A stretch of DNA of 64,000 bases from Thermoanaerobaculia bacterium (GTDB lineage Bacteria > Acidobacteriota > Thermoanaerobaculia > Gp7-AA8), in contig JADGNZ010000003.1 in NCBI GenBank assembly GCA_017883205.1, positions 1 to 64,000 of the forward strand. Reading direction: 5' to 3'. The notes under the pieces are model-generated. The model saw only the letters and a list, made by a program, of their open reading frames with translations. It was not told where the DNA came from and made no database searches. Of this stretch, positions 44,448 to 48,695 are shown one piece after another; position 1 is the first letter of the stretch; every line of letters starts with the position of its first letter. The position numbers were made by a program, and so were the translations under genes.

Positions 44448-44530
44448 GAGGCATCGCGATGGCAAGAGTCGGACCACGTTCGAGGCTGCTGAAATCAAGT
44501 CGTTCATTCGTAGTGGGTTACACTTCTGGC

Positions 44531-45664
44531 ATGTCGTTCGACCGCATCGACCGCCGGCGTTTCTTTCTACTCGCCGCGGCGCCATTGCTCGCGGCACAGA
44601 AAGCCGCGGTTCCTCACGCTCGGGAAGCGTTGCTGCAGTTGAATGGCTATGCCGTGAATGCGGAAACGCCGATCGAGCTGCTCACTGAGTACCTGACTCC
44701 GAACGAGCTTTTCTTCGTCCGCAGCCACTGGATCCCGCGCACGCCCGACCCGAAGAGGTGGAGGTTGACGATCGACGGTGAGGTCGACCGCTCGCTGCAT
44801 TTTACACTTTCCGAACTGAAAAAACTCCCGCGCACGGAAGTAACCTGCGTTCTACAGTGCGCCGGCAACGGCCGCGGGCTCTACTCACCGCCCCTTCCCG
44901 GCGTGCAGTGGCGCTTCGGCGCGGCGGGCAACGCGCGATGGACTGGCGTACGCGTGCGCGATGTGCTCGACCGAGCCGGCCTCAAGGGCAGCGCGAAGCA
45001 TCTGCACGCATTCGGTAGCGATGTTCCGCCGGACAAGGTGCCTCCATTTCATCGCAGCATCGAAATCGAGAAGATCCTTGCCGACGGAATCCTCGCATTC
45101 TCAATGAATGGCGAGCCGCTGCCGGTGGCGCACGGCGCGCCGCTCCGCCTCATCGTCCCCGGCTGGGCAGGCGATCATTGGATGAAATGGCTGGTCCGGC
45201 TTTCTCCTCAAGTGGAGCCGCAGAAAGGCTTCTACATGGAGACGGCGTATCGCTATCCGCTGGCTCCTGGCGCCGCGGGCGTGACGTTCAAACCCGAGGA
45301 GATGAGTCCCGTCACGGAACTGTTCGTGAAATCGAACATCACAACCGCGCCGCAACGAGCACAGGCCGGTCATGCGCAGGAAATCCGCGGGTTTGCTTTT
45401 TCGGGAGCTCCCGACATCGCCAAAGTCGAGATCAGCGACGACGACGGCGCAACGTGGCAGGACACGATCCTTGATCATCGCCATGATCCCTACGCTTGGC
45501 GGTTGTGGTCGTATCGATGGACTCCCGCGCGCCCGGGCGTGGCACGCCTTTGCGCACGCGCGACCGACAGCCGTGGAAACATCCAGCCGCGGGAGGCTGT
45601 CTGGAATCAGAGCGGATACCTTCACAATGGCTGGCACTTCGTCGACGTCGAGGTCACATCGTGA
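44531..45664 (+). CDS. Periplasmic sulfite dehydrogenase-like molybdoprotein (SorA/SoxC type)
   Basis: I use the ATG at 44531, giving a Tat-type start (MSFDRIDRRRFFLLAAAPLLAA), suitable for a protein folded with its molybdenum cofactor before export. The oxidoreductase domain has the molybdenum-ligating cysteine at about 110 (TCVLQCAGNGRG), then GAAGNARWTGVRVRDVLDRAG, ILAFSMNGEPLPVAHGAPLRLIVPGWAGDHWMKWL, and the dimerisation domain (IRGFAFSGAPDIAKVEISDDDGATWQDT). The enzyme lacks a haem domain. A cytochrome c gene overlaps it by 4 bp, as in SorAB. The probable reaction is sulfite to sulfate with electrons passed to that cytochrome. YedY/MsrP-like functions are less likely given the cytochrome partner. 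Confidence 0.88.
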   Translation: MSFDRIDRRRFFLLAAAPLLAAQKAAVPHAREALLQLNGYAVNAETPIELLTEYLTPNELFFVRSHWIPRTPDPKRWRLTIDGEVDRSLHFTLSELKKLPRTEVTCVLQCAGNGRGLYSPPLPGVQWRFGAAGNARWTGVRVRDVLDRAGLKGSAKHLHAFGSDVPPDKVPPFHRSIEIEKILADGILAFSMNGEPLPVAHGAPLRLIVPGWAGDHWMKWLVRLSPQVEPQKGFYMETAYRYPLAPGAAGVTFKPEEMSPVTELFVKSNITTAPQRAQAGHAQEIRGFAFSGAPDIAKVEISDDDGATWQDTILDHRHDPYAWRLWSYRWTPARPGVARLCARATDSRGNIQPREAVWNQSGYLHNGWHFVDVEVTS

Positions 45665-46023
45665 AGCGATCGATCGCGACCGTGTTCTTCGTGGCACTGG
45701 CCGGAACTTTTGCGCTCGCGGGTACCAAGCCGCGTCCGCGTTTTGACGCGAGACTCCCGGTGCTGGGGACGACGTTTCACTCGTTGCCGGCCGGTAGCGG
45801 AAAGGGTCTGGTTGAGGGAAGCTGCTTTCGATGTCACTCCGCGGACATGCTCGTGCAGCAGCGTCTGACGGAAAAGCAGTGGACGGCCGAAGTCGACAAG
45901 ATGATCCGCTGGGGTGCCGTCGTGAAGGATCCGGACAAGCCGGCGATGTTGGCCTATCTGGCGAAGCACTTCGGGCCCGAGAACAAGTTCGCTCCGATCA
46001 GGACGCGGCCCTCGGGTTATTGA
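45661..46023 (+). CDS. Small mono-haem cytochrome c, sulfite dehydrogenase subunit (SorB-like)
   Basis: From a GTG at 45661 (4-bp overlap with the molybdoprotein gene), a signal peptide (MKRSIATVFFVALAGTFALA) is followed by a small domain with one haem motif, CFRCH, in EGSCFRCHSADMLVQQRLT. The likely axial methionine lies in DKMIRWGAVV or KPAMLAYLAKHFG. The 120 residues fit SorB-type cytochromes. It should take electrons from the molybdoenzyme in the periplasm. The gene order and overlap make the pairing very likely. Confidence 0.88.
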   Translation: MKRSIATVFFVALAGTFALAGTKPRPRFDARLPVLGTTFHSLPAGSGKGLVEGSCFRCHSADMLVQQRLTEKQWTAEVDKMIRWGAVVKDPDKPAMLAYLAKHFGPENKFAPIRTRPSGY

Positions 46024-46090: not shown

Positions 46091-46468
46091 TCATGCCGCC
46101 AGCGCGACCTGCTGCCCCCGAAACAATGCCTCAGTCTCGGCATTGAGAAGGACCCACAGCGTGTAAACGCCGAGTGCCGTTCCGAACGGGAAACTGAGGA
46201 TGTGCAGCACACCGACGATGATCGCCACAATCCGCGCCCACGGCTGCATCTTTAGCAGGCCTATTCCGGCGAACATCCCAGGCAACGAGACGACAAGGAG
46301 GAGGCACGCGATCCCGGCGCCGACCGCGCCGGTGATGAGCATCGCATCACGGTCACCCGAGATCGCTCCGCCGAACAGGACGACGCTGCCGATTCCCAGG
46401 CCGACCAGCACGATGATGGAGCTGTAGACGATGAAGCACCAGGCAAGAATGCGAACGTGATCTCTCAT
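46091..46468 (-). CDS. Four-helix membrane protein of unknown function
   Basis: The 125 residues from the ATG at 46468 contain about four hydrophobic segments: ILAWCFIVYSSIIVLVGLGI, LITGAVGAGIACLLLVVSLP, a central GLLKMQPWARIVAIIVGVLHIL and a last GTALGVYTLWVLL. The WARIVAIIVGVL...P.GTALGVYTLWVL pattern is common in small DUF-type bacterial membrane proteins whose role is unknown. A TTG two codons upstream is possible. It converges with the cytochrome gene and is divergent from the rhodanese gene. Confidence 0.75.
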   Translation of the reverse strand: MRDHVRILAWCFIVYSSIIVLVGLGIGSVVLFGGAISGDRDAMLITGAVGAGIACLLLVVSLPGMFAGIGLLKMQPWARIVAIIVGVLHILSFPFGTALGVYTLWVLLNAETEALFRGQQVALAA

Positions 46469-46602
46469 GATCAATCTTACGAAGTATGGCCCTCAGGGTT
46501 GCGATGGGAACATGCTACCCTTCGCTGAGGTTTCCGAAGTCTGCGTCAACGAACGCAAAAGTAGAATTCTCAACAATCCTTAACAGGGAGGCTCGGCAAG
46601 AG

Positions 46603-47091
46603 ATGCGTCATTTTGTTACCGCAACAGCCGTGGTCGCCTTTCTCGCGACAGGTCTGGCTCACGCTCAGATGAAGTCGGCTGTCCCGCCAGGAACGAAGCC
46701 ATCGACGCAGGTTACAACCGCGGTGGCCACTCCTGTGGCGGAGGCACCGCTGGAGTCCGCGCGCCGGATCACTCGCGAAGAAGCGATCAAACTCGTCAAA
46801 GAAAAGAAAGCGGTCTTTGTCGACGTCCGGTCGAAAGAGTCGTATGACCAGGCGCACATCTTAGGCGCGATCAGCATTCCGCTCGGTGACGTGATCACCC
46901 GAGTTCGCGAACTACCTCAAGGAAAGTTCATCATCACGTATTGTGCTTGACAGAACGAGCATACAAGCGCCCGTGCGGTGCTGGACCTCAATGCTCATGG
47001 AATCAAGAACACGGCTGCGCTCCTCGGCGGATGGAGCGGCTGGCAGGCAGCACAGCTCCCCGTCGAAAGCACGACCGTAACGAAAAGGTAG
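46603..47091 (+). CDS. Secreted rhodanese with in-frame UGA: candidate selenoprotein
   Basis: The ATG at 46603 begins a signal peptide (MRHFVTATAVVAFLATGLAHA). A rhodanese domain follows: ITREEAIKLVKEKKAVFVDVRSKESYDQAHILGAISIPLGD, then the active-site loop ITYCA-UGA-QNEHTSARAV. The UGA at 46948-46950 is codon 116, two after active-site Cys114. Past it the frame stays open and conserved (LDLNAHGIKNTAALLGGWSGW) to a TAG at 47089-47091, for 162 residues in all. Rhodaneses of this subgroup often read YC(A/S)CPNE..SAR, so UGA falls exactly where they have a second cysteine. A hairpin at 46966-46982 fits a bacterial SECIS. If UGA is read as selenocysteine, this is a periplasmic selenocysteine sulfurtransferase; otherwise it is a truncated pseudogene. 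The sulfite dehydrogenase genes are close by. Confidence 0.7.
46966..46982 (+). promoter_or_regulatory. SECIS-like hairpin after the in-frame UGA
   Basis: AGCGCC and GGTGCT pair as six base pairs (with one G-U) around a CGTGC loop. The loop begins 22 nt after the UGA, inside the 16-37 nt range usual for bacterial SECIS elements, and contains the GU often needed for SelB binding. It lies within the coding frame, as bacterial SECIS elements do. This was folded by eye only. Confidence 0.5.
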
Positions 47092-47135: not shown

Positions 47136-47798
47136 CTACTGGATTCCTTTGAAGAAGCGGTGAAACCGCGGACGGTACCAATGGTTCCGGTCGAGCGAGA
47201 ACGCCACGGCCATTGCTTTTCCGACGATGCGCTGGCGCTCGATCATTCCGATGAAACGGCTGTCGTTGCTGTTGTCGCGATTGTCGCCCATCACGAAATA
47301 GCGGCCGGCCGGAACGACCAGCGGCCCGAACGAGCGCGTGGCCGGAATCTGCGGCGTGAACATCACGTCGTGCGATTTACCACCCATGGTCTCCTCGACG
47401 ATGAATGAGGCGCCCTGCTCGTCATCGTCGCGCTGCGCCACCTGCTTCCAGGCCGCGGCCTGACCGTTCACCAGAAGCTGGTTCTCACGCATCTCGATTT
47501 TGTCCCCAGGCAGTGCAACGACTCGCTTCACCAGCCGGACGCCGTCAGCCGGTGAGAAGAGGACGACGATGTCGCCGCGCTTCGGATCGCTCCATTTCAG
47601 CAGCTCGATCATCGTGAACGGCACCTTTAGATCGTAGGCAAGCTTGTTCACCACGACGCGGTCGCCCTCCTCGATCGTCGGTTTCATCGATCCGGTCGGC
47701 ACATCGTTCCAGTCAGCCAGGGCCGAGCGGAGAGAGCTGATGACCAGCAACATCAGGAGGAAGACGCGTGCTTCGTAGAAGACTTTTTTCTTATCCAT
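47136..47798 (-). CDS. lepB: Signal peptidase I
   Basis: A membrane-anchored serine protease that removes Sec signal peptides. I use the ATG at 47798 (MDKKKVFYEARVFLLMLLVISSLRS), which places one membrane segment at the N-terminus; the long open extension upstream is not credible. The catalytic serine is in DVPTGSMKPTIEEGDRV and the lysine in RLVKRVVALPGDKIEM. The signatures GDIVVLFSPADG and YFVMGDNRDNSNDSRFIG are complete. The 220 residues are typical. It is a single gene, converging with the rhodanese gene. Confidence 0.94.
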   Translation of the reverse strand: MDKKKVFYEARVFLLMLLVISSLRSALADWNDVPTGSMKPTIEEGDRVVVNKLAYDLKVPFTMIELLKWSDPKRGDIVVLFSPADGVRLVKRVVALPGDKIEMRENQLLVNGQAAAWKQVAQRDDDEQGASFIVEETMGGKSHDVMFTPQIPATRSFGPLVVPAGRYFVMGDNRDNSNDSRFIGMIERQRIVGKAMAVAFSLDRNHWYRPRFHRFFKGIQ

Positions 47799-47954
47799 CG
47801 GTTTTGTACGCACTTTCCTGTCGAGGCCGTCTGATCTGCGGGTTCCTGCAGGTTTGGAGATTATCGTCAGAGAGTAAAGCAACGGGCGTTTCAACGCCTC
47901 GCAGGCTTCATCGTAGTAGTGGACAGCATCACATTCCCGGAGGACATGAACGTC

Positions 47955-48695
47955 ATGAAAAAGCTTCTCATTGCATTGGCGGTTGCGGCCATGTCGGCGA
48001 TCGGCTTCGCACAGGCGCCCGCAGACGGCGTGCCCCATCGCCACGGACACCACGGCGCCTTCCGTCAGCTCGGCGCGAACCTCAATCTCACCGATGCCCA
48101 GAAACAGCAGATGAAGGACATTCGCTCCGCCGACCGCGAGAGCAACAAGCAGCTCTACACCGATTTACGCACGAAGTCGCGGGAGCTCCGCGCCCTTCGC
48201 CAGGCAAACGATCCGGGTGCGGCAGCTCTGAAAGCCGAGATCGAGTCGATGAAGCCGCAGGTCGAGGCCGCGCGCAAAGCCAGCCATCAGGCCATGCTCG
48301 CAGTGCTCACCGCTGACCAGCGCGCCCAGCTCAAGAAGGCCCGGCAGTCGCAAGGCCTTGGCGGCCGCCACGGCAACGCGATGCGCCATGCGGTAGCCTC
48401 GAAACTGAATCTGACCGACGAACAGAAGAGCCAGCTCCAACAGCTTCGTCAGGCTACGCAAGACAAGAACCAGCAACTCTTTGCCGATGCGAAGGCCAAG
48501 CGACAGGAGTTTCATTCGCTGAAGAAGGCGAACGACCCGCGCGCCGCCGAAGTGAAGGCGGAGCTCGAAGCGCTTCGCCCGCAACTCCAGGCCGCGAAAC
48601 AGGAGCAGCACACAGCATTCCTCAGCATTCTCACGCCCGAGCAGCGTATGCAGCTCGAGCAGTGGAAGAGCCGGCGCGAACAGCAGCTCCGCTGA
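47955..48695 (+). CDS. Periplasmic protein with two Spy/CpxP-like domains
   Basis: I use the ATG at 47955, placed 11 bases after GGAGG, giving MKKLLIALAVAAMSAIGFA as signal peptide; the ATG at 47946 is too close to the ribosome binding site. The mature protein is highly helical with two repeats of about 100 residues, each opening with an LTxxQ motif (NLTDAQKQQMKDI and NLTDEQKSQLQQL), each with a second LT..QR (VLTADQRAQLKKA, ILTPEQRMQLEQW). Spy and CpxP have one such unit and form a cradle-shaped dimer that acts as a chaperone or signalling inhibitor. Here two units in one chain may mimic that dimer. His-rich GHHGA near the start could bind metal. A strong terminator follows. Confidence 0.85.
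   Translation: MKKLLIALAVAAMSAIGFAQAPADGVPHRHGHHGAFRQLGANLNLTDAQKQQMKDIRSADRESNKQLYTDLRTKSRELRALRQANDPGAAALKAEIESMKPQVEAARKASHQAMLAVLTADQRAQLKKARQSQGLGGRHGNAMRHAVASKLNLTDEQKSQLQQLRQATQDKNQQLFADAKAKRQEFHSLKKANDPRAAEVKAELEALRPQLQAAKQEQHTAFLSILTPEQRMQLEQWKSRREQQLR

Follow-up and report, generated by a model that had tools for sequence, protein, structure and literature searches.

The 64,000-nucleotide stretch of Thermoanaerobaculia DNA analyzed here (the window) contains, at 46603..47091 on the + strand, a rhodanese gene for 162 residues that terminates in TAG and is interrupted in translation by a single internal stop, a TGA at codon 116 (46948-46950). When this codon is read through, the product consists of one rhodanese domain that follows a putative signal peptide (MRHFVTATAVVAFLATGLAHAQ, 46603..46668, + strand), and by-eye reading of this N-terminal sequence suggests that the protein is probably exported. 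The read-through domain matches PF00581 over profile positions 2-102 of 102, with a score of 62.3 bits that exceeds the gathering cut-off of 22.2 across the entire domain, and its predicted fold is concordant with this assignment (see below). The original prediction, made from the sequence of the window, that a rhodanese frame is interrupted here by UGA alone is therefore borne out.

Upstream of this gene, and on the same strand, lie genes for a SorA-like molybdopterin sulfite dehydrogenase (44459..45664; PF00174/PF03404) and a SorB-like cytochrome c (45685..46023; no Pfam match). Among NCBIfam models, those for SorA and SorB come closest to these neighbors, and both proteins score under the respective equivalog cut-offs (288.9 bits against 600 for NF052245, and 43.6 bits against 93 for NF052246, the latter scored on a longer frame that begins at 45496). 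A frame on the opposite strand (46091-46474) separates the SorAB-like genes from the rhodanese gene, which is followed on the - strand by a gene for signal peptidase I (lepB, 47136..48053; TIGR02227, 160.6 bits against a cut-off of 47).

Comparative analysis of related genomes indicates that UGA codon 116 is very probably decoded as selenocysteine (Sec). A match to the rhodanese domain (107-residue query, E<=0.001) is present in all 18 genomes of the family, and 11 of these 18 contain a close ortholog (at least 65% identity) with a TGA at the same place. A search of 148 genomes from the class gave matches at E<=1e-20 in 19 genomes, 25 in all; 16 of the 25 matches carry the TGA and the nine that do not all have Cys at this column. 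More distant rhodaneses can differ there (for example, Gly in L065 and L002). The window protein and 10 UGA orthologs share an identity of 0.58-0.78 upstream of the UGA and 0.63-0.85 downstream. Thus, two properties used to recognize bacterial selenoproteins are found in this family, namely coding sequence that is conserved on both sides of the UGA and homologs that have either UGA or Cys at the corresponding column.

The alternative named in the original prediction was that a Cys codon had recently mutated to a nonsense codon; either a pseudogene of this type or a sequencing error could produce a frame that is intact apart from one stop and whose close relatives without the UGA have Cys. These explanations are now extremely improbable, since the identical UGA recurs in the 11 family genomes and also elsewhere in the phylum, in further families, the sequence after the UGA is approximately as conserved as that before it, and the codons of a downstream hairpin are frozen in UGA genes and unfrozen in Cys homologs.

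This hairpin is a candidate bacterial SECIS element (46966..46982, + strand), and it is predicted to form a 6-bp stem (46966-46971 paired with 46977-46982) closed by a 5-nt loop, CGUGC (46972-46976), which begins at nucleotide 22 after the UGA, as had been proposed; the hairpin is conserved. A possible lower stem (46957..46996, + strand; 46957-46962 paired with 46991-46996) is predicted beneath it in the window, and the predictions for this lower stem differ among orthologs. According to the available portion of a review, bacterial SECIS elements have a loop of 3-9 nt, a stem of 4-16 bp, a G in the first two loop positions, a loop located 16-37 nt after the UGA, and a minimum free energy of -7.5 kcal/mol or lower (PMC13188914). 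Judged against these printed rules rather than by a SECIS program, the window hairpin falls within the published limits (nucleotide 22, 6 bp, -8.7 kcal/mol for 21 nt and -14.7 kcal/mol for 48 nt), and the usual N1-N2 loop pair is not present in it.

The evidence that this hairpin stands above chance comes from comparative freezing of its codons and not from its folding energy, which is unexceptional for both the 48-nt segment (z -1.42; 18 of 200 shuffles fold as well) and the 21-nt segment (z -1.78; 7 of 200). Codons +6..+10 relative to the UGA show 96% synonymous identity among 11 orthologs, a level that is reached by 32 of 100000 random five-codon column sets; the number of random sets reaching the observed value is 18 of 100000 for a second UGA subfamily and 99974 of 100000 for the Cys homologs. 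When codons +5..+10 are considered, synonymous identity is found in 285 of 330 comparisons for the 11 UGA orthologs (0.585 elsewhere in the genes) and in 193 of 196 for the nine genes of the second UGA subfamily (0.539 elsewhere), but in only 23 of 78 for seven Cys homologs (0.576 elsewhere). Synonymous freezing of these codons is therefore a property of the UGA genes that the Cys homologs lack. Codon +5, which lies directly before the stem, is unfrozen in the UGA orthologs (0.36), and a second highly conserved stretch in these orthologs covers codons +15..+20.

Covariation was also considered as proof of a SECIS element and was set aside, because the helix is too conserved to provide it: a compensatory double change was seen in 0 of 7 pairs, and the pairing found in 91.6% of alignment cells was reached by 73 of 500 shuffles (shuffle mean 90.4). 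Control hairpins that were slid along the alignment paired in only 29-53% of cells.

The genome from which the window derives (6.37 Mb, 99.73% complete) encodes selA (476.6 bits), selB (346.2 bits, on the contig that carries the window), selD (367.3 bits) and tRNA-Sec (selC; 71.4 bits, ARAGORN anticodon tca), so the four components by which the capacity to make bacterial selenoproteins is recognized are all present. The Sec machinery, a SECIS element and the distribution of UGA and Cys among relatives had been named at the outset as checks on a selenocysteine reading, and the results of all three support it. The selD gene has an in-frame UGA of its own (in the context GGUACKLG; L030:1501-2496, contig C35 of the window's genome), suggesting that selD is probably a selenoprotein too. 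Across the class, selB was detected at E<=1e-60 in 128 of the 145 genomes sampled; G012, G088 and G090 contain a UGA ortholog and no selB at this threshold, which may reflect the draft state of these assemblies (87, 82 and 93% complete, respectively). In genome G007, selB is located ~2 kb beyond the Sec rhodanese gene in the same direction (L067:5296-9439, G007:C6), and what appear by eye to be tmk- and holB-type genes lie between the two.

A frame that is conserved past a UGA shows that the codon is decoded, and this would also be the case if UGA were reassigned, or if Trp or another residue were inserted there with no Sec system involved. This explanation is very improbable for the window's genome, since UGA also serves as an ordinary terminator (TGA is the stop codon of 5 of the 13 genes checked, a set that includes the rhodanese gene), close relatives have Cys and not Trp at the aligned position, and a full Sec system is present together with a positioned hairpin that is conserved. 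The frame, the UGA/Cys column, the frozen hairpin and the Sec machinery are all established by comparison, and they support decoding of codon 116 as Sec, for which we propose that SelB and Sec-tRNA(Sec) would be recruited by the downstream hairpin.

Rhodanese selenoproteins with a C-x-U motif are already known, so this kind of protein is not new. In the portions of the sources that were available, a CxU rhodanese is listed as rhodanese-like form 3 (TKB26178.1; PMC13188914) and as COG0607 form 2 (PMC9312934), and the window gene contains the form 3 motif as YCAU. The best NCBIfam match of the window gene, and of the other two Sec rhodaneses in its genome, is NF041203 (rhodanese_LYCAU, 'rhodanese-related (seleno)protein'), with which they share a C-x-U rhodanese domain. 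However, their scores of 83.7 (window gene), 62.5 and 82.1 bits lie under the equivalog cut-off of 115; the window rhodanese also differs in its apparent export (judged by eye), and in one paralog the rhodanese is joined to a VTT (DedA-type) membrane domain. By its motif the gene thus belongs to a known kind, yet it falls outside the curated equivalog. The cut-off is likewise missed by nine other UGA rhodaneses from the phylum. When 396 genomes of the phylum were searched, 133 had a match to NF041203 at E<=1e-15 and one genome had a match that passed the cut-off, suggesting that the cut-off is too high for Acidobacteriota; 13 of the 20 best rows in this search carry one TGA somewhere in the match, and several other phylum matches with a TGA have read-through frames of at least 300 amino acids.

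Other selenium-containing rhodaneses differ from the window protein in the arrangement of their active sites or domains. For example, forms 1, 2 and 4 likewise have a rhodanese domain with Sec, but the motifs given in the available part of the review are UxxS or UxxG (PMC13188914), whereas the window gene retains the Cys and has Sec as an extra chalcogen at position +2. TsoB, the rhodanese/DsbD fusion-like selenoprotein described by NF045694, contains a rhodanese-like part with Sec, but its motif is UxxxxU in the portion of the source that was available, and the single-domain window protein scores 23.4 bits against the cut-off of 805. Among the literature listings and paper passages covered, which take in few subscription papers, none described a functional test of a CxU rhodanese. 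Together with the related genomes, these comparisons indicate that what appears to be a gene broken by a stop codon is very probably an intact gene for a selenium enzyme of a known, little-studied kind.

Three of the 15 rhodanese domain matches in the window's genome carry one TGA, all in a YC[AT]U context, and these encode the window protein (YCAUQNEH), a protein on contig C100 (YCTUPDEE) that has a hydrophobic N-terminus by eye, and a protein on contig C57 (YCTUPNEA). The C57 gene (L025:983-1915, minus strand) is the one in which a VTT (DedA-type) membrane domain is fused to a CxU rhodanese containing the in-frame UGA.

A DNA-only query that combines the UGA with hairpin sequence, TGA-N15-AGCGCCSGKGCGGYGC, identified 19 sites in 18 of 396 genomes of the phylum, and a reversed control pattern had 0 matches in the same 396 genomes. 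All 19 sites fall in rhodanese frames with C-x-U-x-x-E, a result that is partly circular since the pattern was derived from rhodaneses and spans coding sequence. Six of the sites came from the alignment used to build the pattern (G000, the window's genome; G007, twice; G011; G013; and G016) and the site in G018 was already known before the search, so the remaining 12 are newly found, and all 12 are C-x-U rhodaneses. The exact pattern recovers one of the three UGA rhodaneses of the window's genome and misses the other two, indicating that the hairpins vary more widely than the pattern does, and many rhodaneses of the phylum with one TGA somewhere in the match escape it as well. A covariance model of the rhodanese hairpin, applied to the window's genome (150 of 6844 first-look candidates scored), recovered only its own training members, namely the three UGA rhodaneses, and a single further match at E 0.70; selD was not among the matches, so this model is uninformative on the rest of the selenoproteome. 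The UGA alignment used in this work (A1) comprises 22 UGA sequences and omits L079-L081.

The position of the UGA, two residues past Cys114, also agrees with the original prediction, in that Cys114 (TGT, 46942..46944, + strand) occupies the column of the catalytic-position Cys in rhodaneses of solved structure. Tyr113, Cys114, the Sec or Cys at 116, and Glu119 (GAG, 46957..46959, + strand) show no variation among the 29 rows aligned (29 of the 36 rows used for a phylogenetic tree; L052, L053, L057, L059, L064, L065 and L082 were omitted). An AlphaFold model of residues 51-157 in the Cys form has a rhodanese fold (pLDDT 91.9), and the 50 PDB matches listed for this predicted model have Z values of 13.6-17.6. 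The shared fold extends to GlpE (1gmx, Z 16.0) and to the rhodanese domain of CoADR-RHD (3ict, Z 16.8), the latter representing CoA-disulfide/persulfide reductase domains. In the model a helix begins at residue 120, so the six-residue active-site loop is predicted to be C114-A-U116-Q-N-E119. Unlike GlpE-like single-domain rhodaneses, the window protein would therefore have a loop that holds Sec and ends in Glu, and it scores 33.5 bits against a cut-off of 102 with the NCBIfam GlpE model.

The Glu at the predicted loop end is present in all 29 aligned rows and in all 19 matches to the DNA pattern. In the available part of a survey, the active-site loops of 13 structured rhodaneses end in Arg, Thr or Ser; RDL2 and DUF442 variants with the loop-end Arg replaced lost ~90 and 95% of their thiosulfate activity, respectively (PMC8533005). 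With the loop boundary taken from the predicted model, the residue at this position in the window protein is Glu119 instead of the Arg, Thr or Ser associated with thiosulfate sulfurtransferases, which argues against thiosulfate sulfurtransfer.

This residue bears on a proposal about function that arises from the SorA-like and SorB-like genes located upstream on the same strand. Because sulfite is a product when rhodaneses act on thiosulfate, the selenoprotein could act as a classical thiosulfate sulfurtransferase whose sulfite product is oxidized by the neighboring SorAB. We consider this proposal improbable: in addition to the Glu at the loop end, the opposite-strand frame intervenes between the two sets of genes, and of 14 loci, only 3 have both SorA and SorB next to the rhodanese gene, and one more has a partial SorA match (some of the 14 loci end at contig edges). 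The lepB gene adjoins the rhodanese gene in 7 of the 14 loci, Sec and Cys loci alike, and is thus kept more often than SorAB. So, of the neighborhood originally described, the SorA- and SorB-like genes are indeed present, at scores below the model cut-offs, but their sulfite link to the rhodanese is weak, and SorAB coupling as the main function was downgraded because the adjacency is not maintained across loci.

The combination of a loop-end Glu and a selenol positioned two residues from a thiol would favor redox chemistry or persulfide resolution over thiosulfate cleavage. For the export, chemistry, substrate and redox partner of the enzyme, we infer a scheme in which Cys114 may accept sulfane sulfur or become oxidized, and Sec116 could then resolve Cys114 via a transient Cys-Sec bond. 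In this scheme, the protein would work in the periplasm on thiol/selenol redox reactions or on persulfides, and would not be a thiosulfate sulfurtransferase of the classical type. It is possible, at somewhat less than an even chance, that the Cys114/Sec116 pair carries out periplasmic sulfur redox chemistry of this type.

The history of the Sec/Cys column was read from a tree of 36 rows, which left out loci before L025 and matches of <70 residues; the comparison rows also exclude duplicate loci for one gene, together with L003, L005 and L035. The last of these, from an Acidobacteriota MAG, looks identical to the gene of G008, with which it shares its protein stretch. This tree requires at least three Sec/Cys changes, two of them forced by well-supported branches. 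A seven-row Cys clade nests within the Sec rows of the window's subfamily with support of 89/86 (below the starred level of the tool), and the rows nearest the root, outgroup aside, are two, both Cys.

A broader and more tentative reading, which as a whole we regard as rather unlikely, joins three proposals. The C-x-U-x-x-E rhodaneses may be a distinct group that is widespread in Acidobacteriota, mostly scores below the model cut-off, and has abandoned thiosulfate sulfurtransfer; the loop-end Glu and the Cys/Sec pair of this group may constitute a periplasmic selenol-dependent persulfide/disulfide reductase; and the window's subfamily may have been duplicated, partly in tandem, with one copy changing from Sec to Cys and losing the hairpin.

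Apart from this broader reading, the analysis adds well-supported selenoprotein candidates to Acidobacteriota. The UGA genes among the matches in the 133 phylum genomes would be expected to be truncated or split by standard annotation. In addition, the acidic residue at the loop end renders the label 'sulfurtransferase' testable for these proteins. Genomes G006 and G011 each contain a Sec copy and a Cys copy of the rhodanese gene in tandem, and these adjacent copies would allow the benefit of selenium in a rhodanese to be studied by direct comparison. The pairs are located at L041/L055 (G006:C285) and L045/L054 (G011:C2), and their Cys copies are without the hairpin codons.
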